The notes: generated by a model from the letters alone, not told the origin. A DNA stretch of 64,000 nucleotides from Pseudomonadota bacterium (GCA_018240695.1 JAFEFH010000003.1:1-64000); one strand, 5' to 3'; shown: positions 1 through 11,550, counted from the first letter of the stretch. Numbers and translations: made by a program.

Positions 1-854
1 CGATCCTGTTGCTGGTCACCTGGATCTCCGCCGATCGCTGGATCGTGTATCCGCTGCGGCAGATTCAGGCGTTCGCCGGGAAGGTCGCGCACGGTGGCAA
101 CTTCACCCTCACGTCGCCGCCGTCGTGGTCGCCGGAGATGGTCGATATTGCCAAGGCGATCAACGACGTGGCCGCGGCGATCGCCAGCCGCGAAGCCGAG
201 CTGCGCTCGGGTCTCGAGCAACGCGACCACATGCTGCGCGAGATACATCATCGCGTGAAGAACAACCTCCAGATGATATCGAGTCTGCTCAACCTGCAGG
301 CCGGGGAAATTCGCTCGCCGCGGCTGCGTCGCTTCTTCGGCGACGCGCAGAATCGGGTGCTGACCCTGTCGATCCTTCACCGCCATCTCTACGAACGGTC
401 GAGCTGGTCGCTGGTCGATTTCCAGCAGTTCATCAGCGACCTGGTGCGCCAGATCACGGTGGCGCGGCCGCGTGCCGAGCAGATCACGCCGCGTTATCAC
501 ATCCGCGCGCCGATCATGGCGGTCGGTCCCGATACCGCGATTCCGGTCGGCCTGATTGTGACGGAGGCGGTGACCAGCGCGCTCAGCCACAATTTCACCG
601 GCGTGGCGACGCCCGAGATTCGCATCGAGGCGACAGAGAAGGATGGCGAGGCGGAACTCGTCATCGAGGACAACGGCATCGATACGCACCACGGCTCGAT
701 CGATCCCGATCTGCGGGCCGGCTTCGGCGTGACGCTGGTGCGCGGCCTGGCCATGCAGCTGGGCGGTGAGGTGAAGATCACGGCGCGCGACGGTGGCGGC
801 ATGCGCATTTCCATCGTCTTCCCGCTCGAGCGCGAGGAGCCGGCCGATGCCTAG
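1..854 (+). CDS. HisKA_2 sensor histidine kinase, 5-prime end outside window
   Basis: The frame is open at the window edge, so the N-terminus is missing. What remains starts in a transmembrane or HAMP-like segment (WIVYPLRQIQAFAGKVAHGG), followed by a HisKA_2 dimerisation domain with the phospho-acceptor motif EIHHRVKNNLQ (His codons at 246-251) and a HATPase domain. Two ATPase boxes look degenerate: the N-box reads TEAVTSALSH where the family usually has an Asn (VTNALKH), and the G1 box reads DNGIDT with no second Gly. In Alphaproteobacteria, HisKA_2/HWE kinases often feed the PhyR-EcfG stress response, which would suit the EcfG-like sites nearby; no phyR, nepR or ecfG gene lies in the window. 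The stop overlaps the next gene by 8 nt, so the two are probably one operon. Confidence 0.85.
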   Translation, partial: ILLLVTWISADRWIVYPLRQIQAFAGKVAHGGNFTLTSPPSWSPEMVDIAKAINDVAAAIASREAELRSGLEQRDHMLREIHHRVKNNLQMISSLLNLQAGEIRSPRLRRFFGDAQNRVLTLSILHRHLYERSSWSLVDFQQFISDLVRQITVARPRAEQITPRYHIRAPIMAVGPDTAIPVGLIVTEAVTSALSHNFTGVATPEIRIEATEKDGEAELVIEDNGIDTHHGSIDPDLRAGFGVTLVRGLAMQLGGEVKITARDGGGMRISIVFPLEREEPADA

Positions 855-3414
855 CGCGCGCCAGGCCATCCGCTCGACCGGCGTGGTGATCGGCATCACC
901 ATCGCAGTGCTCGTCGCTGCGGGCGCGTTGCTGACGGTCACGCACTCGAACTCGGCAGCGCGGCAGCAGCGGCTGGTGCTTTCCAACTTCGAGACGATCT
1001 CGTTGATGCGTCAGGCACTGGTGACCATGCAGGACGCCGAGATCGGCCAGCGCGGCTATCTGCTGTCGGGAGAGAGCGCCAGCCTCGAGCCCTACGAGCG
1101 CGCGCGGCTGCGCATCGAGAGCGTGCTGCGGCAGCTCGAGGCCGCGACGGCCGGCGACCGCGACGCGACACGTCAGATCGCAGAGTTTCGCGACGCCGCG
1201 CGCGACAAGCTGACGGAGCTCAGCGGCAGCATCACCGCCTATCGGCAGTACGGGCGGGAAGGTGCGCCGGAAAAGACCCAGCTCGGGGCAGGGCGCCTCA
1301 CATCGGATCATATCCGCCAGGCCGCCGATTCGTTCGTCGAAGGCCAGCGCCTGCTGCTGGCGCGGCGGCTCGCGATGCTGCGCTCCGAACAGGAGCAAGC
1401 CGACCTCGCGGGCCTCCTCGTGCTGGCCGGCGCTTTCGTCTGTCTCGTCATCGGCACGTTCCTCATCGTGCGTGGAGCGGGGCGGCTCGAAGATACGCGG
1501 CGCCAGCTCGTCGAGCGATCGAGCCTGTTGCAGGCCACGCTCGAGACGCTGAGGGATCCCATTGTCGTTCTCGATGCCGACGGCACGGTAGTCGCGTGGA
1601 ACGAGTCGTTTGCCGATCTCGCGGGTTGGGACCCCGGCCGCCAGCCCGCGCCGACGCGCGACTTCCTGTTGTCGGAGCGGTCCCCGGCCACCCGGACGCT
1701 GCTGGGGCCGCTGAAGCTCGGCGAGCCGATGGCCGAACGGTCCCTGTCGGCCCGCGTGTCGCACGACGGGCGAGAGTATGAAGTCTCGCGCGGGGAGATG
1801 CCGGACGGCGGCGCGGTCGTGCGCTGCGCCGACATCAGCGAGGAACTCCGGGACGAGGCGGCGCTCCGGCAGGGCCAGAAGATGGAGGCGATCGGTCAGC
1901 TGACGGGCGGCATGGCGCACGATTTCAACAACATCTTGCAGGTCATCCAGGCGAACCTCGACCTGATGCGCAAGGATGTGGCGGGCAATCCGGGCTTTCT
2001 GGGGCGCTTGCAGAGCGCCTCCGCGGCCGCCGAACGCGGCGCCGGCCTCACCCATCAGCTCCTGGCCTTTGCCCGGCGCCAGCCGCTCGAGCCGCAGCCG
2101 ACCAATATCGGCGCGCTGGTCTCGCGGCTGACAAACCTGCTCAAGCAGGCGCTGGGCGAGCGCATCACGCCCGAGTTCGCCATCGCGCCGAACTCTTGGA
2201 ACGCCAAGATCGATCCCGGCCAGCTCGAGAACGCCATCCTCAACCTCGCAATCAATGCACGCGATGCCATGCTGGATGGCGGCTCGGTCAGGATAGAGGT
2301 CTCCAATGCCACACTCGACCGCCGCTATGCCACGCTGCACGCGGATGTGACGCCGGGCGCCTATGTGCTGATCGACGTGAGCGACACCGGAACGGGCATG
2401 CCGGCCGATGTGGTGGCGCACGCGTTCGACCCGTTCTTCACGACCAAGGACGACGGCAAGGGCACCGGCCTCGGCCTCAGCATGGTTTACGGGTTCGTGC
2501 GGCAGTCCAATGGACATATCCGCATCGACAGCGCGATCGGGCAGGGGACAAGCGTCAAGCTTTACCTGCCGCGCACCCTGGAGTCGGCGACCGAAGCCGA
2601 GCCGGTGCTGTCGAGCACTGCCAGCGGTTCCGAGCGGGTGCTCGTCGTCGAGGACAATGACGACGTCCGCACGGCAGTGGTCGATATGCTGTCGGGCTGG
2701 GGCTACCGCGTGACAGCCGCGGAAAACCCCGACGCCGCGGCCATCGCGCTGGAGAAGGATCCGAGTTTCGACCTGCTGTTCACCGACATCGTGATGCCAG
2801 GGACGATCTCGGCGATCGAACTTGTCGAGATGGCTCAGCGCCTGCGCCCGACCATGGCGGTGCTCCTGACCTCGGGCTACGCGCGCGACCTCATCCCCGC
2901 GCAGTATCGCGAGGCGTTGCCAATGATCGCCAAGCCCTATCGCAGCGAAGAGCTGGCGGCGAAGGTGCGGGCCGCGCTTTCGACCCGGCGCCAGCCCTCG
3001 AGGATAGAGACGTCTCCGGCCGGGGGCGAGGCGCCGACCGCACCTTCCGGTCGGCCCAAACGCATCTTGCTGGTCGAAGACGAGGTCGTCCTGCGCATGT
3101 CCACCACCGACATGCTGGAACGGCTCGACTGCCTGGTCTCCGGCGTCGGCAGCGGCGAACAGGCCCTGGAATTGCTGGGGCGCGGGGCGACGTACGATCT
3201 GCTGCTGACGGATCTCGGCCTGCCGGGCATGAGCGGCGAGCAACTTGCCGCCGAGGTTCGACGCCGCCATCCCGGCCTGCCCGTTATCATTGCCAGCGGC
3301 TACGGGCGCACTGGAAACGAGCCGGACGGCGTCCATTTTATCGGCAAGCCGTATTCCGCGATCGATCTGCAACAGGCTCTGGACCACGCCGCCCGCGCTG
3401 TCCCCAGCCCCTGA
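847..3414 (+). CDS. CHASE3-PAS hybrid histidine kinase with two receiver domains
   Basis: Inner-membrane hybrid sensor kinase of about 855 residues. Order: TM helix (about 10-32), CHASE3 periplasmic sensor (about 35-170, with QDAEIGQRGYLLSG), second TM (about 187-212), PAS (about 230-340), HisKA with GGMAHDFNNILQ (His358), HATPase with N-box Asn470, G1 DTGTGMP and G2 GKGTGLGLSM, then receiver 1 (phospho-acceptor Asp647, FTDIVMPG, Lys in IAKPY) and receiver 2 (Asp789, LTDLGLPG, Lys in IGKPY). All catalytic boxes look intact, unlike those of the upstream kinase. I chose the ATG at 847, inside the end of the upstream gene, because it precedes the first TM; the longer frame adds only a Ser/Arg-rich leader. 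The signal sensed is unknown. No output regulator with a DNA-binding domain follows. Confidence 0.93.
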   Translation: MPSARQAIRSTGVVIGITIAVLVAAGALLTVTHSNSAARQQRLVLSNFETISLMRQALVTMQDAEIGQRGYLLSGESASLEPYERARLRIESVLRQLEAATAGDRDATRQIAEFRDAARDKLTELSGSITAYRQYGREGAPEKTQLGAGRLTSDHIRQAADSFVEGQRLLLARRLAMLRSEQEQADLAGLLVLAGAFVCLVIGTFLIVRGAGRLEDTRRQLVERSSLLQATLETLRDPIVVLDADGTVVAWNESFADLAGWDPGRQPAPTRDFLLSERSPATRTLLGPLKLGEPMAERSLSARVSHDGREYEVSRGEMPDGGAVVRCADISEELRDEAALRQGQKMEAIGQLTGGMAHDFNNILQVIQANLDLMRKDVAGNPGFLGRLQSASAAAERGAGLTHQLLAFARRQPLEPQPTNIGALVSRLTNLLKQALGERITPEFAIAPNSWNAKIDPGQLENAILNLAINARDAMLDGGSVRIEVSNATLDRRYATLHADVTPGAYVLIDVSDTGTGMPADVVAHAFDPFFTTKDDGKGTGLGLSMVYGFVRQSNGHIRIDSAIGQGTSVKLYLPRTLESATEAEPVLSSTASGSERVLVVEDNDDVRTAVVDMLSGWGYRVTAAENPDAAAIALEKDPSFDLLFTDIVMPGTISAIELVEMAQRLRPTMAVLLTSGYARDLIPAQYREALPMIAKPYRSEELAAKVRAALSTRRQPSRIETSPAGGEAPTAPSGRPKRILLVEDEVVLRMSTTDMLERLDCLVSGVGSGEQALELLGRGATYDLLLTDLGLPGMSGEQLAAEVRRRHPGLPVIIASGYGRTGNEPDGVHFIGKPYSAIDLQQALDHAARAVPSP

Positions 3415-3439: not shown

Positions 3440-3465
3440 GCAACCGCGACGCCGCGAGAGGCGTT
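3440..3465 (+). promoter_or_regulatory. EcfG-like promoter (GCAAC-N17-CGTT)
   Basis: GCAAC at 3440-3444, 17 nt, CGTT at 3462-3465, lying 32 nt before the ATG at 3498. The alphaproteobacterial EcfG consensus is GGAAC-N16/17-CGTT, so one base differs. Confidence comes mostly from the same pattern recurring before other small genes in this window. Confidence 0.4.
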
Positions 3466-3497
3466 GATCGGACAGCAGCAAGCAACGCAGGTGTCTC

Positions 3498-3683
3498 ATG
3501 ATCGTCTCTCGTGCGCACGCCAAGACCGCCGTCGTCCAGGCCCGCGTCGCCGAGCATCACGACGAGGATATCCTCGTGAACCCGTACATCTCGCGGCTTT
3601 TGGAAAGCGAGTTGCTCGATCTGTACGCCGCGATCCTGATCGCCGTGCCGGTCGCTTTCTTTCTCAAGTCTCTTTGGTTCTGA
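3498..3683 (+). CDS. small hypothetical protein with C-terminal TM helix
   Basis: Sixty-one residues that I do not recognise. The first 40 are polar and partly acidic (HHDEDILVNPY), and the last 20 (DLYAAILIAVPVAFFLKSLW) form one hydrophobic helix, so it is probably a tail-anchored or single-pass membrane peptide. The ribosome-binding site is weak (GCAGGTG). Support comes from the EcfG-like site just upstream and from the cluster of similar small stress-type genes that follows. It stands alone between the hybrid kinase and the CsbD-like gene. Could be spurious, but composition and context favour a real gene. Confidence 0.5.
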   Translation: MIVSRAHAKTAVVQARVAEHHDEDILVNPYISRLLESELLDLYAAILIAVPVAFFLKSLWF

Positions 3684-3718
3684 AGATTTTTCGGGCCGTG
3701 CTGCACGTTATCGGCGGA

Positions 3719-3743
3719 GCAACCTTGCTGCCGCGGCACCGTT
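3719..3743 (+). promoter_or_regulatory. EcfG-like promoter (GCAAC-N16-CGTT)
   Basis: GCAAC at 3719-3723, 16 nt, CGTT at 3740-3743, 54 nt before the CsbD-like gene. CsbD proteins are general-stress proteins in many bacteria, so an EcfG-dependent promoter is plausible. One mismatch to GGAAC-N16/17-CGTT. Confidence 0.45.
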
Positions 3744-3797
3744 AACGATGCATCGAACGTCCCTTCCGTTCGCCTACAATCATCAGAGGAGAATCCA

Positions 3798-4136
3798 ATG
3801 CGTTCCATCGCCATTCTTGCGGCTTGCGCGGCTGTCACCGTCGGCATCGCGCCGATGATCGCCAATGCGCAGACTGCCACCACCACCACGACCACCAAGT
3901 CGTCGACCACGGTCTCTCCCGAGGTGAAGAGCATGTGGGAGAAGATGAAGGGCAGCTGGCAGCAGACCAAGGGCACCGTGAAGGAGCAGTGGGGCAAGCT
4001 GACCGACGACGACCTGATGGAAGTCGAGGGCCGCCGCGACGTGCTGATCGGCAAGATCCAGACCCGCTACGGCATCAGCCATGAGCAGGCCGAGGCGCAG
4101 GTCTCGGGCTGGGAAATCAAGCACAAGAGCATGTAA
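3798..4136 (+). CDS. CsbD-like secreted stress protein
   Basis: 112 residues with a clear signal peptide (about 1-25, cut after IANA), a Thr/Ser-rich linker, then a CsbD-type helical segment: WEKMKGSWQQTKGTVKEQWG followed by LTDDDLMEVEGRRDVLIGKI. CsbD proteins are small, mostly cytoplasmic stress proteins of unknown action; the signal peptide here places this one in the periplasm. A good RBS (GAGGAG) sits 8 nt before the ATG. The next gene starts 16 nt downstream, so the two probably share the EcfG-like promoter at 3719. Assignment to the CsbD family is by the helix pattern and the KGxxKEQWG motif. Confidence 0.82.
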   Translation: MRSIAILAACAAVTVGIAPMIANAQTATTTTTTKSSTTVSPEVKSMWEKMKGSWQQTKGTVKEQWGKLTDDDLMEVEGRRDVLIGKIQTRYGISHEQAEAQVSGWEIKHKSM

Positions 4137-4151
4137 GGGCTGGAGGCCACG

Positions 4152-4694
4152 ATGATGCTCGATCGCTTCTCGATGCTCGCCTTGGGCGGCCTCATCGGTC
4201 TTGGACTGGCGGGGACGGCCATGGCGCAGGAGTTTCGCGATTCGCGGACGGGCCGCACCTGGACGCCTAATCTTCAGGTCCAGGAGGATATGGCCGCGGC
4301 CAATCCCAACGCGCCCGTCAACCGCGCCTTCGACCCGAGGTCGCAGGGCGCGGTCGTACCGGGCATCGTCGTGCAGCATCCGCACGCCCAGCTGATGGGC
4401 ACCGTGCCGTTCACGGCCGGCCCTTCGGTGCCGATCGTCGACGTCGACGCGCCGTCCTTGCAGGCCATTCCGGCCCAGCACTGGCTGGCGGTGCTCTATG
4501 TCACGAACAACAGCGCCAATACGGTGAACGTGGTGCTCGATTGCCACTTCACGAACGGCGGCGCCAAGGTCGAGGATACGCGCGTGCTGGTACCCCCCGC
4601 GGGGCCGGGCGAGCGTCTCGGTGTTCCCGTGCGGGGACCGAGGACCGACCTGTTCGTCGATCGGGTTTCCTGCAATGTCGTGACGCCGAGCTGA
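4152..4694 (+). CDS. secreted hypothetical protein
   Basis: 180 residues, unrecognised. A signal peptide (about 1-25, ending GTAMAQ) leads to a mature domain rich in Pro, Val and Asn that looks beta-structured near the C-terminus (LAVLYVTNNSANTVNVVLDC), with two Cys residues that could form a disulfide. Two ATGs lie side by side at 4152 and 4155, with GGCTGGAGG as a fair RBS; either start keeps the signal peptide. It follows the CsbD-like gene by 15 nt and is closed by a strong terminator, so the two form a short operon probably under stress control. Confidence 0.75.
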   Translation: MMLDRFSMLALGGLIGLGLAGTAMAQEFRDSRTGRTWTPNLQVQEDMAAANPNAPVNRAFDPRSQGAVVPGIVVQHPHAQLMGTVPFTAGPSVPIVDVDAPSLQAIPAQHWLAVLYVTNNSANTVNVVLDCHFTNGGAKVEDTRVLVPPAGPGERLGVPVRGPRTDLFVDRVSCNVVTPS

Positions 4695-4733
4695 TCGCCT
4701 TAATAGCAGCTCGAGCCCGTGAGGGTTCGGAGA

Positions 4734-4775
4734 GGGCCGGTGTTTCCGTCGCTTGGCGGAAATACCGGCCCTTTT
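4734..4775 (+). terminator. rho-independent terminator
   Basis: A 15-bp stem (arms 4734-4748 and 4757-4771, one G-U type mismatch) with an 8-nt loop, followed by TTTT at 4772-4775. It ends the CsbD-like operon. Confidence 0.8.
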
Positions 4776-4823
4776 CGTTGAGCGCCAAACAACGCTACGG
4801 TGGCGCCTTCATCGGAGGATTGA

Positions 4824-6398
4824 ATGGCGAGCATCGGTTTTGGACGGCGGTCGGCTCTGGCGGGAGGCGCGGCGCTTGCGTCCGCGGCGATCATCCGGCC
4901 ACGCGAAGCGCGGGCCGCCAAGGGCCTGAACGTCGTGCTGGAGTCCGAGGCGAAGATCCTCGATCCCTATTACACCACTGCGGCGATCACCCGGACCTTC
5001 GCGCTGCACGTGTTCGATACGCTGTTCGCCATGAACGAGAAGGGCGAGATCAAGCCGCAGATGGTCGACACCTGGCAGGTGAGTACGGACCAGCTCGGAT
5101 GGACGTTCGTCCTGCGCGACGGCCTGAAGTTCCACGACGGCGCACCCGTGACCGCCGCCGACTGCGTGGCGTCGTTGAAGCGCTGGGGCGCGCGCGACGC
5201 GCTCGGCAAGATGCTGCTGGAGGGCACGGCCTCGATCGAGGCAAAGGACCCGCGCACGTTCACAATGGCCCTCAAGGAACCGTTCCCGATGATGCTGGAC
5301 GTGCTGGGCAAGCCCAATGCCGTCCTTCCCGTCATCATGCCGGCCCGGCTCGCCGCGACGGCCCCCAACGAGCGCATCTCCGATCCGATCGGCTCCGGCC
5401 CGTTCCGATTCGTCAAGGCGCAGTGGGCGCCGGGTAACGCCATGGTGCTCGAGCGCAATCCCGACTACGTGCCGCGCAAGGAACCGCCGGATTTCCTGTC
5501 CGGCGGCAAGAACGTGAAGATCGACCAGCTCACGCTGCGCGTGATGCCAGACCCCTCGACCGGCGCAAACGCGCTGATGGCCGGCGAGATCGACTACATG
5601 CAATACCTGCCGTTCGACATGCTGCCGATTCTCGAGAAGGAGAAGAGCGTGAAGCTGGTGGGCCTGGGCGGCATCCACCAGTTCCAGGGCAACTTCCGCC
5701 TCAACCACGCGTCGGCGCCGTTCGACAATCCCGCTGTCCGCAAGGTGCTGTGGAAGCTGGTGGACCAGGATGCGACGCTGACGGCGATCGGCGTGCCCGA
5801 GCGCTACCGCGCCAAGTCCTGCGACTCCTTCTGGATGTGCGGCGCGCCGCTCACGACCGATGCCGGCGCCGCCGGCAACAAGTTCGACCTCGCCGCGGCC
5901 AAGGCCGAGCTCAAGGCGTCGGGCTACAAGGGCGAGCCGGTCGTCATCCTCGAAGTCGCAGGGTCGATCAGCCAGACCGCCTCGCGCCTGCTGGTGCAGA
6001 ACATGCGCGACGTCGGCTTCACGGTCGACCAGCAGCCGCGCGATTGGTCCACGATCCTCGAGCGTCGTGCCAAGAAGGAGGGCTGGTCGATGTTCCCCGT
6101 CTACTCGAACGGGACGGACATGTTCTCGCCTCTTACGCACTTCTACGTGGCGTCGACCTGCAACGACTATCCGGGCTGGTCGTGCGACAACCGGATCCCG
6201 GTGCTGCTGAAGTCCTTCACGCGCGCCGCCGACCTCGATGCACGCAAGAAGATCGCCGCCGAGATCCAGTCGATCTGCTACGAACTGACGCCGTCGGTGA
6301 TGTGGGGCCAGTTCACGATTCCGGCCGGCTATCGCACCTCGATGAAGGGCTTGATCGAGTCCGACTATCCGATGTTCTGGGAGGTCGACAAGACATGA
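4824..6398 (+). CDS. ABC transporter substrate-binding protein, family 5 (peptide/opine type)
   Basis: 524 residues with a Tat-type signal (GRRSALAGG, about residues 7-30, then AREARA/A). The mature part has the family-5 pattern: early ILDPYYTTAAITRTFALHVF, a ligand-binding lobe with WTFVLRDGLKFHDG, then SDPIGSGPFRF. Periplasmic binding of a di- or oligopeptide-like ligand is the family role; the ligand cannot be read from sequence. RBS CGGAGG lies 7 nt before the ATG. No permease or ATPase genes adjoin it, so it must work with components encoded elsewhere or act as an orphan. Its stop overlaps the next gene by 4 nt. Confidence 0.9.
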   Translation: MASIGFGRRSALAGGAALASAAIIRPREARAAKGLNVVLESEAKILDPYYTTAAITRTFALHVFDTLFAMNEKGEIKPQMVDTWQVSTDQLGWTFVLRDGLKFHDGAPVTAADCVASLKRWGARDALGKMLLEGTASIEAKDPRTFTMALKEPFPMMLDVLGKPNAVLPVIMPARLAATAPNERISDPIGSGPFRFVKAQWAPGNAMVLERNPDYVPRKEPPDFLSGGKNVKIDQLTLRVMPDPSTGANALMAGEIDYMQYLPFDMLPILEKEKSVKLVGLGGIHQFQGNFRLNHASAPFDNPAVRKVLWKLVDQDATLTAIGVPERYRAKSCDSFWMCGAPLTTDAGAAGNKFDLAAAKAELKASGYKGEPVVILEVAGSISQTASRLLVQNMRDVGFTVDQQPRDWSTILERRAKKEGWSMFPVYSNGTDMFSPLTHFYVASTCNDYPGWSCDNRIPVLLKSFTRAADLDARKKIAAEIQSICYELTPSVMWGQFTIPAGYRTSMKGLIESDYPMFWEVDKT

Positions 6399-6655
6399 AC
6401 GTCCGGCACAACGAGGCGGCCGCGCGCTACGAACTCGACACCGAGCACGGCCAGGCCATCGCGGCCTATCGTCAGCAGGGTAACGCCCGTGTGTTCACGC
6501 ACACGGAGGTCCCGCCGGCTGACGAGGGCAAGGGGATCGGGGCGGCGCTGGTGCGTGCCGCTCTCGACGACACCAAGGCACATGGCTTCAAGATCGTGCC
6601 GGCGTGCAGCTTCGTCGTCGCCTTCGTGCGACGGCATCCGGAGTATGCCGGCTAG
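6395..6655 (+). CDS. GNAT-like N-acetyltransferase (YjdJ family)
   Basis: 86 residues with the short YjdJ-type GCN5 fold: an N-terminal beta pair (RYELDTEHGQAIAAYR), a middle strand (VFTHTEVPPADEGKGIGAAL) that holds the acetyl-CoA loop G-K-G-I-G, and a C-terminal VPACSFVVAFVRRHPEY. These mini-acetyltransferases bind acetyl-CoA; their acceptors are unknown. ATG 6395 sits inside the stop of the binding-protein gene (ATGA), implying translational coupling. It is convergent with the DUF2177 gene and their stop codons overlap by 4 nt (CTAG). Confidence 0.85.
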   Translation: MNVRHNEAAARYELDTEHGQAIAAYRQQGNARVFTHTEVPPADEGKGIGAALVRAALDDTKAHGFKIVPACSFVVAFVRRHPEYAG

Positions 6656-7053
6656 GAAACCGCGCGTGCCGCGAGATAGCCGGCGGTGGAGGCGACTGCG
6701 GTCGCGAAGGTACCCCAGGCGAGATCGACCAGGCTGACCGCGAAGGGCCAGCCGCGCAGGGTCGCGAGATTGGTGATGTCGTACGCAGAGTAGGCGAAGA
6801 AGCCGAACAAGGCGCCATACAGCGCGGCCGTCAGCCAGGTCCCGCCGCTCAGCGCCATCGGCACCGGAAAGACCATCATGCCGACGGCATGGATCAGGTA
6901 GAACAGCAGGGCGATCGACCACACCGGCTGCTCCAGCAGGAGCTGGCCGAGGCGGGCCTTGTAGAACTCCCGGCTGATCAGCCCCAGCCACAGCGCGTCG
7001 AGGACCGCGAGCGCCAGCAGGGCCGCCAGGTATCCCGCAACGTTCTTGCTCAT
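6652..7053 (-). CDS. DUF2177 family membrane protein
   Basis: 133 residues with four predicted TM helices (about 5-25, 45-65, 72-95 and 105-130). The pattern ALAVLDALWLGLISREFY near the N-terminus and YSAYDITNLATLRGWP in the middle are typical of DUF2177, whose function is unknown. The start at 7053 follows the stop of the 81-residue gene by 4 nt, so it is the last gene of a three-gene minus-strand operon (7468 to 6652) probably driven by the EcfG-like site at 7508-7532. Confidence 0.85.
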   Translation of the reverse strand: MSKNVAGYLAALLALAVLDALWLGLISREFYKARLGQLLLEQPVWSIALLFYLIHAVGMMVFPVPMALSGGTWLTAALYGALFGFFAYSAYDITNLATLRGWPFAVSLVDLAWGTFATAVASTAGYLAARAVS

Positions 7054-7057
7054 ATGG

Positions 7058-7303
7058 CTAGTGTTTTCGATCGTTGGGTCTGCATGAAGAGACCCTTTTT
7101 GCGCCGGCCAGGGACACCTGTCCACGGCGCAACAGGGACATCAGCGCCCGGCGCGTCTGGGAATCGGTGAAGCCACGATCTTCCAGGCGGAGTTCGAGGT
7201 CCTTTATCGGGACCTCGGGGCCGTCGATGCGGGCGAGGCTGGAAATCTCGTCCAGCACGGCGCCTTCGACATCGGTCAAACGGTGAAAGGAGGGGGGGGA
7301 CAT
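7058..7303 (-). CDS. small hypothetical protein with winged-helix-like C-terminal half
   Basis: 81 residues, unrecognised. The helical pattern LTDVEGAVLDEISSLA, then VPIKDLELRLEDRGFTDSQT and RRALMSLLRRGQVSLAG, resembles a small winged-helix domain (two helices and a recognition-like helix), but this is only a fold guess. It lies 27 nt downstream of the 45-residue TM gene and 4 nt before the DUF2177 gene, as an operon middle gene would. An overlapping forward frame at 7302 has a purine-rich upstream stretch, but its product is disordered and low in hydrophobics, so I prefer this strand. Confidence 0.55.
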   Translation of the reverse strand: MSPPSFHRLTDVEGAVLDEISSLARIDGPEVPIKDLELRLEDRGFTDSQTRRALMSLLRRGQVSLAGAKRVSSCRPNDRKH

Positions 7304-7330
7304 GCCGACGCTACGCTCCCGGGGGCTTGG

Positions 7331-7468
7331 TCAGGCGTGTGGAATCAGGAATGCCCAGCACAGGCCCAGCGCGATGGCGGCACCTACGAAGGACGAAACA
7401 AGTACCAGCGCGACGCGTCCACTTATGACGCCGCTTCGCGCCTCCACGGGAGTGCGCTCTCGTTCCAT
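7331..7468 (-). CDS. 45-residue single-TM membrane peptide
   Basis: A short frame read from the minus strand: a charged N-terminus (MERERTPVEARSG) followed by one strong hydrophobic helix (VALVLVSSFVGAAIALGLCW) and a stop after PHA. The charge pattern suggests N-in, C-out. The RBS is weak. What supports it is the EcfG-like promoter 39 nt upstream (7508-7532) and its place as first gene ahead of the 81-residue and DUF2177 genes. No family recognised. Confidence 0.5.
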   Translation of the reverse strand: MERERTPVEARSGVISGRVALVLVSSFVGAAIALGLCWAFLIPHA

Positions 7469-7507
7469 GACACATCCATTTGGTACGTTGAGGGGCTCAG
7501 GCGAGTG

Positions 7508-7532
7508 AACGCGAGGTTTTGTCGGGGGTTGC
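7508..7532 (-). promoter_or_regulatory. EcfG-like promoter (GCAAC-N16-CGTT)
   Basis: On the minus strand: GCAAC at 7532-7528, 16 nt, CGTT at 7511-7508, 39 nt before the ATG at 7468. It matches the other sites in this window in sequence and spacing. Confidence 0.45.
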
Positions 7533-7591
7533 CGGGCGGTCTTCGGTTTTTGGGGCCGCTTGTGCCGGCCGCCGGCCGCGCCGTTGGCACG

Positions 7592-7616
7592 GGAACCGCG
7601 GCATGGAGTCCACGTT
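7592..7616 (+). promoter_or_regulatory. EcfG-type promoter (GGAAC-N16-CGTT)
   Basis: GGAAC at 7592-7596, 16 nt, CGTT at 7613-7616: an exact match to the alphaproteobacterial EcfG consensus. It is 42 nt before the DUF1328 gene and divergent from the site at 7508-7532, so one short intergenic region seems to drive stress genes in both directions. Confidence 0.6.
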
Positions 7617-7658: not shown

Positions 7659-7829
7659 ATGTTGCACTGGGCATTGGTTTTTCTCGTGGTCGCGCTGGTC
7701 GCCGCGGTGTTCGGTTTCGGCGGCATCGCCTCTACCGCCGCAGGCATGGCGCAGATCCTCTTCGTCGTGGCGCTGGTGCTCTTCGTCATCAGCCTGCTCG
7801 CCGGCTTCGCCCGCGGACGCAATCTCTAA
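7659..7829 (+). CDS. DUF1328 (YtjA-like) small membrane protein
   Basis: 56 residues, almost all hydrophobic: [20 protein letters not shown] then [12 protein letters not shown] and a second TM segment ending FARGRNL. This is the classic DUF1328/YtjA pattern of two TM helices around a GGIA-AAGMA turn. Function unknown; homologues are often stress-induced. The ATG at 7659 was chosen over an upstream in-frame start because the family begins MLxWAL. An exact EcfG-type promoter precedes it. Confidence 0.9.
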
Positions 7830-7871: not shown

Positions 7872-8198
7872 ATGTCATATCGTGGTCTTTGCATCGCCAT
7901 CGTGGCCGGCGCCCTCGCGGCGGCCTGTACCCACACCGAGCGCCGGACGGTGGTCGTGCCGTCGCCTGTCGACGATTCGTGCACCTACTACGGCTACACG
8001 CCGGGCACTGAGGCCTATCGCGTCTGTGTCGACCGCGAAGCGGCCGCCCGCGCCCGCGGTCGCATGGCGCGGACTTATGCGCGTGATCGCATCGTCGCCG
8101 ACTCCCAGGATGCCTGCGTGTCCTACGGGCTGATCCGCGGCAGCGAGCGTTACGAGCGCTGCGTTCAGCGCGAGATCAACTACCGCAACCCGGCCTAA
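7872..8198 (+). CDS. lipoprotein with two Cys-bounded repeats
   Basis: 108 residues. A lipoprotein signal ends in the lipobox LAAAC (Cys20). The mature protein holds two related units, CTYYGYTPGTEAYRVCVDRE (about 35-54) and CVSYGLIRGSERYERCVQRE (about 82-101), each with a Cys pair spaced 15 residues and separated by an Arg/Ala-rich helix. This repeat is seen in small alphaproteobacterial lipoproteins of unknown function. RBS AGGAGG lies 6 nt before the ATG. It follows the DUF1328 gene by 42 nt and may share its promoter. Its stop overlaps that of the convergent gene at 8195. Confidence 0.82.
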   Translation: MSYRGLCIAIVAGALAAACTHTERRTVVVPSPVDDSCTYYGYTPGTEAYRVCVDREAAARARGRMARTYARDRIVADSQDACVSYGLIRGSERYERCVQREINYRNPA

Positions 8199-9109: not shown

Positions 9110-9215
9110 TTGCTTCCTTTTGCTCGGCAGGAGGAGGCTAGCACAGGTGCGGCGGCGAGGGAGAGGCGGGCAACGCGCTTCCCTCGCCGGGCGTTAGCAC
9201 CGGTGCGGAGGTATC

Positions 9216-10433
9216 GTGTCCCATCCTGAAACGCGTCCCGTACCGGCCCCCGTCCTGGCCAACGCCCCCGCGCGCTTCGAACGCTTCCTCGCGGTGCGCG
9301 CCCTCTCCGAACAGCTCGCCGCGCCTTTGTCGTCCGAGGATCAGACCGCGCAGTCGATGCCGGATGCCAGCCCCACCAAGTGGCACCTTGCGCACACGAC
9401 CTGGTTCTTCGAGACGTTCCTGCTGCGGCCGCACGCGCCGGACTATCGCGCTTTCGATCCGGCTTACGAGTACCTGTTCAACTCCTACTACGAAGCGATC
9501 GGCCCGCGCCATCCGCGTCCGCAGCGCGGCCTCGTCACGCGTCCGGGTGTCGCCGAAGTCATGGACTATCGCCGCCACGTCTCGGACGCGATGGCCACGC
9601 TGATCGAGAAGAACGAGGCGGGCTGCGCGCCGCTGGTCGAGCTGGGTCTCCATCATGAGCAGCAGCATCAGGAGCTGCTGTTGATGGACATCAAGCATCT
9701 GCTGTCGTGCAACCCGTTGCGGCCGGCCTATGACCCGGCACCGCCGCCCCCTATGCCGGCCGCGGCGGCCTTTCAGTGGCGCGCTCTGGAGGGCGGGCTG
9801 GTCGAGATCGGCCACGACAGCACCGGGTTCGCCTTCGATAACGAGGGCCCGCGGCACAAGACGTGGCTCGAACCCTTCGCCATCGCCTCGCGGCCGGTGA
9901 GCAACGCCGAGTATCTCGCCTTCATCGAGGAGGGCGGCTACCGGCGGCCGGAGTTCTGGCTGTCGGCGGGATGGGATTGCGTGACCGGCCGCGGCTGGGA
10001 AGCGCCGCTCTATTGGGAGAAGAAGGACGGGCAGTGGCAGGTCTTCACGCTGCATGGACAGGCGCCGATGCGCGTCAGCGATCCGGTGTGCCATGTCAGT
10101 GGGTACGAGGCCGCGGCCTACGCCAAGTGGGCCGGCGCGCGCCTGCCGCGCGAGGCCGAGTGGGAGTTGGCCGCGACCGACAGTGCCGGGCTCGTTGGCA
10201 CGGGGGCGGTGTGGGAATGGACCGCCAGCCCCTACATCGCCTACCCCGGCTATCGCGAGCCGCCCGGCGCGATCGGCGAATACAACGGCAAGTTCATGGC
10301 CAACCAGATGGTCCTGCGGGGCGGTTGCATCGCCACGCCGCCGGACCATATCCGTCCGACCTATCGCAACTTCTTTCCGCCGGATGCCCGTTGGATGTTC
10401 GGAGGGATTCGCCTCGCAAAGGACCTCCGATGA
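9216..10433 (+). CDS. egtB: ergothioneine biosynthesis protein EgtB (hercynylcysteine sulfoxide synthase)
   Basis: 405 residues. EgtB is a non-heme iron enzyme that joins hercynine to gamma-glutamylcysteine or cysteine using oxygen. An N-terminal DinB-like domain carries the iron ligands, with His in [12 protein letters not shown] (about 57-60) and the H-x3-H motif in HHEQQHQEL (147 and 151); a C-terminal formylglycine-generating-enzyme-like domain ends VWEWTASPY and RGGC. GTG start at 9216 is set by the RBS CGGAGG 6 nt upstream. It overlaps egtD by 4 nt. egtA and egtC are absent, as is common outside actinobacteria. Confidence 0.93.
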
Positions 10434-11404
10434 ACGGATCCGTGCTGACCCTCGACGACATTGCCGCCGCCGACCGCGAGGATTTCCGCCGCGAGGTGCT
10501 GGCGGGATTGGCGCAAAAGGCGCGCGCGATCCCCGCGCGCTTCCTCTACGACGCGCGGGGCTCCGCGCTGTTCGACGAGATCTGCGAGCTGCCGGAATAT
10601 TATCTCACGCGCACCGAGACGCGCATCCTGGCCGAGCGCGCGCCCGAGATCGCGCGGCTGGCGGGGCCGCATCCGGCGCTGGTCGAGTTCGGCAGCGGCT
10701 CCAGCGTGAAGTCGCGCCTGCTGCTCGACGCCATCGGCGATCTCGCGGCCTATGCCCCGATCGACATTTCGCGCGAGCATCTCGAGGCCTCCGCGGCCCG
10801 GCTGCGGCGCGACTATCCCGGTCTCAATGTCGAGCCGGTGTGCGGCGACTACATGACGTTGGAACGCCTGCCGCACATGGGCGCCGACGGACGCCATCTC
10901 GGCTTCTTCCCCGGTTCGACCGTCGGCAACCTCGAGCCGGCCGATGCCACGGCGTTCCTGCGCCGCGCGCGCCGTCTGCTCGGCGACGACGGCGCCCTCG
11001 TGCTGGGCGTCGACCTGCGCAAGGACGCCCGGGTGCTGCACGACGCGTACAACGACGCCGCGGGCGTGACCGCGGCGTTCACGCTCAACCTGCTGCGCCG
11101 CATGAACCGCGAGCTGCACGCGAGCTTCGATCTCGACGGCTTCGCCCACGAGGCGTTCTACAATGAGGGCGAGGGCCGCATCGAGATCTACGTCCGCAGC
11201 CTGCGCGACCAGCAGGTCAACGTGGCTGGTCGCAGCTTCGGCTTCGCGCGTGGCGAGCGCGTCCACACGGAATATTCCTACAAGTACGACCTGCCCGGCA
11301 TCGAGGCGCTGGCCCGCTCGGGCGGCTTCCGCATCGGCGCGTTGTGGACCGATCCGGAGAGGCTGTTCGCCGTCGCCTACCTCGAAGCGGCCTGCACAAA
11401 ATGA
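10430..11404 (+). CDS. egtD: L-histidine N-alpha-methyltransferase EgtD
   Basis: 324 residues. EgtD transfers three methyl groups from SAM to histidine to give hercynine, the first step of ergothioneine synthesis. The SAM-binding loop reads [16 protein letters not shown] (about 83-98), and [12 protein letters not shown] is the family motif. ATG 10430 lies in the egtB stop (ATGA), so the two enzymes are coupled; this gene order (egtB first) reverses the pathway order. A GC hairpin follows the stop. Confidence 0.94.
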
Positions 11405-11405
11405 A

Positions 11406-11432
11406 GCCCGCCTCCGGGGACCGGAGGCGGGC
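11406..11432 (+). terminator. GC hairpin after egtD, no U-tract
   Basis: A perfect 12-bp stem (11406-11417 with 11421-11432) and a 3-nt loop starting 2 nt after the egtD stop. No T-run follows, so it may act as a transcript stabiliser or weak terminator. Confidence 0.5.
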
Positions 11433-11550
11433 GTAGGGCCGGGCGGGGAGGGAGGCATCGCGGAGCGGGGGGCAGGGGCGATACCAGAATACCCGGCCGT
11501 ATCCAATCAACGACGCCCCGGCCCAAATGGTTGCGGGGAAAATCCGAAAA

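Follow-up and report, generated by a model that had tools for sequence, protein, structure and literature searches.

The closest described systems are the regulons of EcfG (ECF15), the extracytoplasmic function (ECF) sigma factor of the general stress response, in Sphingopyxis granuli TFA and Sphingomonas melonis Fr1. In the former, the −35 boxes found most often are GGAAC and GCAAC, csbD is regulated by EcfG, a GCAAC promoter is transcribed in vitro by EcfG holoenzymes, and both EcfG proteins transcribe both −35 forms, the variation seemingly being without effect in vitro (PMC7083833). In the latter, an egtB-type gene (TIGR03440) carries GCAAC and is strongly EcfG-dependent (PMC6599016). Here we describe a 64,000-nucleotide stretch from a Pseudomonadota bacterium (GCA_018240695.1 JAFEFH010000003.1:1-64000; hereafter the window), whose related loci belong to Reyranella (R. 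massiliensis, R. soli, R. aquatilis, Enhydrobacter aerosaccus, and many metagenome bins). Four sites of the form G(G/C)AAC-N16/17-CGTT lie within 4.2 kb of it, in front of small genes of envelope type, those for a 61-residue membrane protein (TM61), a CsbD-like protein, a 45-residue membrane peptide (TM45), and a DUF1328 protein (Table 1). Their sequence and surroundings make it very probable that they are working promoters of EcfG, situated in a stress island that flanks the phyR–nepR–ecfG locus. The likeness to the two regulons mentioned above extends to the boxes, the spacing, a functional GCAAC −35, the csbD and egtB-type targets, and a nepR-ecfG locus with PhyR and an HWE/HisKA2 kinase nearby, whereas Reyranella differs from them in using GCAAC more often than GGAAC and in having targets packed beside the master locus.

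The sites, strands, boxes, and distances of 32–54 nt to the start codons given in a preliminary description of this DNA were all found again in the sequence, and the short genes named there were also borne out, CsbD and DUF1328 by Pfam and the other two by their hydrophobicity: TM61 and TM45 match no Pfam family and contain one strongly hydrophobic stretch each. The published EcfG consensus, GGAAC-N16/17-CGTT, is exact at 7592, and the GCAAC variant occupies the other three positions.

Table 1. Features of the window around the four promoter sites. Spacers are counted from GSAAC (S, G or C) to CGTT, and distances from the end of a site to the ATG.
Feature	Position	Strand	Details
HisKA_2/HWE sensor kinase (phyK-type), 3' part	1..854	+	PF07568 1.7e-25
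Hybrid histidine kinase (CHASE3-PAS-HisKA-HATPase-two receivers)	850..3414	+	Pfam; preceded by an EcfG-type site in 0/41 loci
EcfG-type site GCAAC-N17-CGTT, TM61	3440..3465	+	32 nt before ATG 3498
TM61, 61 residues, one C-terminal membrane stretch	3498..3683	+	Orthologues at the same place in relatives
EcfG-type site GCAAC-N16-CGTT, CsbD gene	3719..3743	+	54 nt before ATG 3798
CsbD-like protein, signal-peptide-like N-terminus	3798..4136	+	PF05532 4.9e-19
TM45, 45-residue membrane peptide	7331..7468	-	TPxEARSGxxSGR motif common to relatives
EcfG-type site GCAAC-N16-CGTT, TM45	7508..7532	-	39 nt before ATG 7468
EcfG-type site GGAAC-N16-CGTT, DUF1328	7592..7616	+	42 nt before ATG 7659
DUF1328 small membrane protein	7659..7829	+	PF07043 3.1e-15
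Cys-repeat lipoprotein	7872..8198	+	Possibly co-transcribed with upstream DUF1328
EcfG-type site GCAAC-N17-CGTT before egtB	9170..9195	+	Absent from the preliminary description; kept in 24/34 loci
egtB, ergothioneine biosynthesis	9216..10433	+	TIGR03440 1.3e-166
egtD, histidine N-alpha-methyltransferase, adjoins egtB	10430..11404	+	TIGR03438 2.2e-116
Candidate EcfG-dependent small RNA, ~105 nt	11396..11501	-	Fold z -6.3; model R1 98.9 bits
EcfG-type site GCAAC-N17-CGTT before candidate small RNA	11509..11534	-	Absent from the preliminary description

Conservation of the sites in Reyranella was followed in the 160 nt upstream of each gene in 47 named loci and in this genome; the 47 loci overlap the other genome set used here, and site comparisons in that set are therefore not independent evidence. 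G(G/C)AAC-N16/17-CGTT was found upstream of TM61 in 37/37 cases, CsbD in 38/39, TM45 in 33/33, and DUF1328 in 28/30, and also upstream of csbD2 (26/26), egtB (24/34), and lipo310 (17/17), a paralogue of the window's lipoprotein that lies beside nepR on contig C310 and has its own GGAACC site. The same scan gave no site upstream of the genes for SDR, nepR, ecfG, ecf2, the HisKA_2 kinase, the hybrid kinase, SBP, or ORF304. Wrong spacings were nearly absent, and GTAAC and GAAAC occurred three and four times, respectively, in all upstream regions, confined to ecfG and SBP. At the four cluster promoters and those of csbD2, lipo310, and egtB, the boxes are fixed and the spacers average only 36–47% identity, so the boxes have not been kept through mere relatedness.

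A second line of evidence comes from whole genomes, in which the expected count of GSAACC-N15/16-CGTT was taken from ten wrong spacings of the same two boxes. By this spacing control, the genome under study contains 40 GCAACC sites against 13.0 expected (P 1.5e-9) and 25 GGAACC sites against 6.6 (P 3.6e-8), and 41 Reyranella genomes together hold 1735 GCAACC sites against 782 and 849 GGAACC sites against 503; GTAACC is rare, with 6 occurrences in the genome under study. By approximate gene predictions, made with a simple codon model that had been trained on the window, 49 of the 65 GSAACC sites of this genome are intergenic, and for 43 a gene is predicted to begin within 150 nt. The enrichment upstream of genes to be expected of promoters is seen both in the excess over wrong spacings and in the intergenic placement of 49/65 sites. 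Targets confirmed by Pfam encode catalase, a KaiC-like ATPase, trehalose phosphatase, an S30AE ribosome factor of the hibernation type, CBS, CFA synthase, DUF6496, DUF899, DUF3309, and hemerythrin, and the predicted target set is a typical list for a general stress response.

Since GCAACC counts exceed those of GGAACC genome-wide, GCAAC is the commoner −35 box in Reyranella, fixed at some promoters, and would be a normal element there, not just a tolerated one. The proposal in the preliminary description that GCAAC is a −35 box tolerated in this lineage stands as to its use, which was understated. Its restriction to the lineage is unsupported: against a weaker control, the reversed pattern, GCAACC is also in excess in other alphaproteobacterial families (36 vs 6 in genome G114, 30 vs 10 in G120, and 31 vs 8 in G133), and the form is documented in Sphingopyxis. 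As a functional −35 box, GCAAC is not new either, because Sphingopyxis EcfG transcribes such a promoter in vitro (PMC7083833). In another genome of the same genus, G009, GCAACC sites were not in excess (11 against 15 expected) and CsbD had no match; this genome may lack the response or may have lost this part of it.

The base at position 2 of the box is not distributed evenly among the promoters. It is always C in the distinct sites before TM61 (35/35), TM45 (35/35), and egtB (21/21), and mostly G before DUF1328 (24 GGAAC and 4 GCAAC) and lipo310 (15/16), in spite of the diverged spacers. This pattern might mean that the products of ecfG and ecf2 read GCAAC and GGAAC differently and that position 2 serves as a promoter code, a refinement that would be compatible with EcfG control of the four sites. 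We consider such a code unlikely, given that the csbD promoter switches between the two bases within the genus (31 GCAAC and 7 GGAAC) and that, in Sphingopyxis, either EcfG protein accepts either form, −35 variation seeming irrelevant in vitro (PMC7083833).

The position of the cluster in the genome points to the same sigma factor. In the relatives, the order of genes is SDR, nepR, ecfG, and ecf2 (leftward), then csbD2 (in many of them), phyR, the HisKA_2 kinase, the hybrid kinase, TM61, CsbD, a secreted protein, SBP, GNAT, TM45 (leftward), DUF1328, the lipoprotein, ORF304, and egtB, with nepR-ecfG-ecf2, csbD2, phyR, the two kinases, TM61, and CsbD contiguous. The window begins with base 1 of contig C293, inside the HisKA_2 kinase gene, and nepR, ecfG, and ecf2 of this genome sit at the end of contig C310. 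NepR was recognized there by PF18557 (27.1 bits, above the cut-off), and the adjoining ECF sigma gene has Sigma70 r2/r4 and PhyR_sigma2 similarity, while none of the curated EcfG-specific models matched it at the cut-off. PhyR is found in 47 relatives (NF006623, 297 bits; PF22029 and PF22233 both passed). Coordinates in the closest relative, L062, suggest that C310 and C293 flank an assembly gap of ~1.8 kb, which would contain phyR along with the 5' half of the kinase gene, and the promoter cluster is, by this gene order, the likely downstream flank of the phyR–nepR–ecfG locus. At the end of C310 (L080, 10920-11287), this genome has two more EcfG-type sites, GCAACC and GGAACC, ~65 nt apart, before a gene for a small glycine-zipper-like protein, at a position that in many relatives is taken by csbD2, with phyR next to it.

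The link of the HisKA_2 kinase to the stress response, drawn previously from its family, turned out to be closer than proposed, as the full-length orthologue is the gene immediately after phyR in relatives. The kinase resembles the PhyK type represented by NF051872 in its near full-length alignment, its HisKA_2 and HATPase domains, and its place next to phyR, but it falls outside the named equivalog, whose curated cut-off is 750 bits and to which the L062 orthologue scores 225; we regard it as PhyK-like by position and do not file it as PhyK. Transcription from the sites, its dependence on EcfG, and the phosphorelay can be pictured as follows: stress would activate the HisKA_2 kinase encoded beside phyR, phosphorylated PhyR would bind the anti-sigma factor NepR, and the EcfG thereby freed would steer RNA polymerase to the G(G/C)AAC-N16/17-CGTT sites before TM61, csbD, TM45, and DUF1328. 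EcfG might further drive egtB, a small RNA, and ~40 other genes, among them those for catalase and trehalose phosphatase.

AAC-type −35 boxes are used by many ECF sigma factors, and a second ECF gene, ecf2, adjoins ecfG in all relatives, so one may ask whether the sites are promoters of some other ECF sigma factor whose consensus resembles that of EcfG. That assignment is improbable, because GGAAC and CGTT at 16–17 nt are the published EcfG consensus, the sites surround nepR-ecfG-phyR, genes of known general stress response type carry them, and ecf2 itself matches PhyR_sigma2 and is probably an EcfG paralogue. That the four sites are chance matches in G+C-rich DNA is scarcely credible and already refuted, because they are kept at orthologous positions across dozens of species with none at control genes, and the genome-wide excess is tied to the correct spacing. 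The count in the window, with 7 GNAAC matches against 2.0 in shuffles and 3 of 100 shuffles reaching 7, is a modest excess that would not by itself settle the reality of the sites, and at the genome-wide density of 188 GSAAC-N16/17-CGTT in 4.7 Mb, four in 4.2 kb have a P of ~3e-5.

The local EcfG-type regulon proposed in the preliminary description is, then, upheld by conservation, spacing-specific excess, intergenic placement, the kinds of targets, and synteny with nepR, ecfG, and phyR, and several points weigh against it. Reyranella has no obvious site directly before ecf2-ecfG-nepR (ecf2, 0/44), unlike the loci of TFA and Fr1 and the autoregulated loci of other species. In this genome phyR itself was not found, with no separate search made for the gene, and its presence is deduced from the gap only. 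Against the reversed pattern, GGAACC shows no excess in the genus (849 vs 1042), which calls for caution; we judged this control to be skewed by composition and in disagreement with the spacing control, on which we relied, and the reversed pattern was rejected as the sole yardstick because the GGAACC excess that is null there is present against wrong spacings.

The ergothioneine genes egtB and egtD belong to the same island as the four promoters. The lipoprotein downstream of DUF1328 has no Pfam or NCBIfam match and is a member of a small lipoprotein/secreted family with repeated C-x-x-YG...Y-x-x-C-V motifs (window 7872-8198, L080:8963-9277, L094, and L099), several paralogues of which in this genome are preceded by an EcfG-type site.

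Downstream of the site at 11509 comes a gap of 105 nt, which is convergent with egtD and has a strong terminator at its end. A protein gene behind the site was ruled out, since none was predicted within 300 nt, and the site appears to be the promoter of a candidate small RNA, not described before, that is composed of an outer stem, an inner hairpin whose loop is C-rich, a C-rich linker, and an intrinsic terminator. Site and RNA are kept in all relatives with complete data. Among 14 sequences, 97.9% of cells in the three helices are paired and 14 of 27 pairs have changed on both sides; all of 500 shuffles fell short of this, and slid pairings dropped to 37–50%. The structure is somewhat favoured in this comparison, having been drawn from the alignment on which it was assessed. 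Rfam contains no family matching the candidate RNA.

Relatives of Caulobacter GsrN in other genomes have been sought by an EcfG site, closeness to the stress response locus, an exposed C-rich loop, and evidence of transcription (PMC5869019). The candidate RNA fits the positional features of this class, with ~100 nt, an EcfG-type promoter, an exposed C-rich loop in its 5' half, an intrinsic terminator, and a place near the general stress response locus, as in most GsrN-bearing genomes (PMC5869019); it differs from GsrN in that the likeness is one of position, promoter, and structure only, and in that its place is past the 3' end of egtD, at ~11 kb from the kinase gene. We find it doubtful that the whole of a bolder proposal holds, namely a two-letter −35 code, kept at each promoter and read differently by the two adjacent EcfG-like sigma factors, together with a new family of EcfG-dependent small RNAs having an anti-Shine-Dalgarno-like C-rich loop. 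A single calculation of base pairing between the C-rich loop and the catalase leader, made without a background, was set aside. The three other sites of this genome without a downstream gene yielded no convincing further small RNA. In a diverged, deep-branching Reyranella bin (L079, 12945-13070, minus strand), a GCAACC site precedes a hairpin and terminator of different sequence, and a lipoprotein-like gene comes next, with a GCAACC site of its own.

Taken as a whole, the locus adds one more case to a regulatory system that is well known, and its most interesting features are the uncommonly frequent GCAAC and a candidate small RNA not described before. For Reyranella, a widespread and little-studied genus of soil and water bacteria for which we found no earlier one in the literature consulted, a general stress response regulon of ~40 genes can now be predicted, most of which would be missed by promoter scans restricted to GGAAC. 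The candidate RNA, which has covariation in its favour and a defined place by the master locus, in turn allows the proposed prevalence of GsrN-like RNAs to be tested in a further family.

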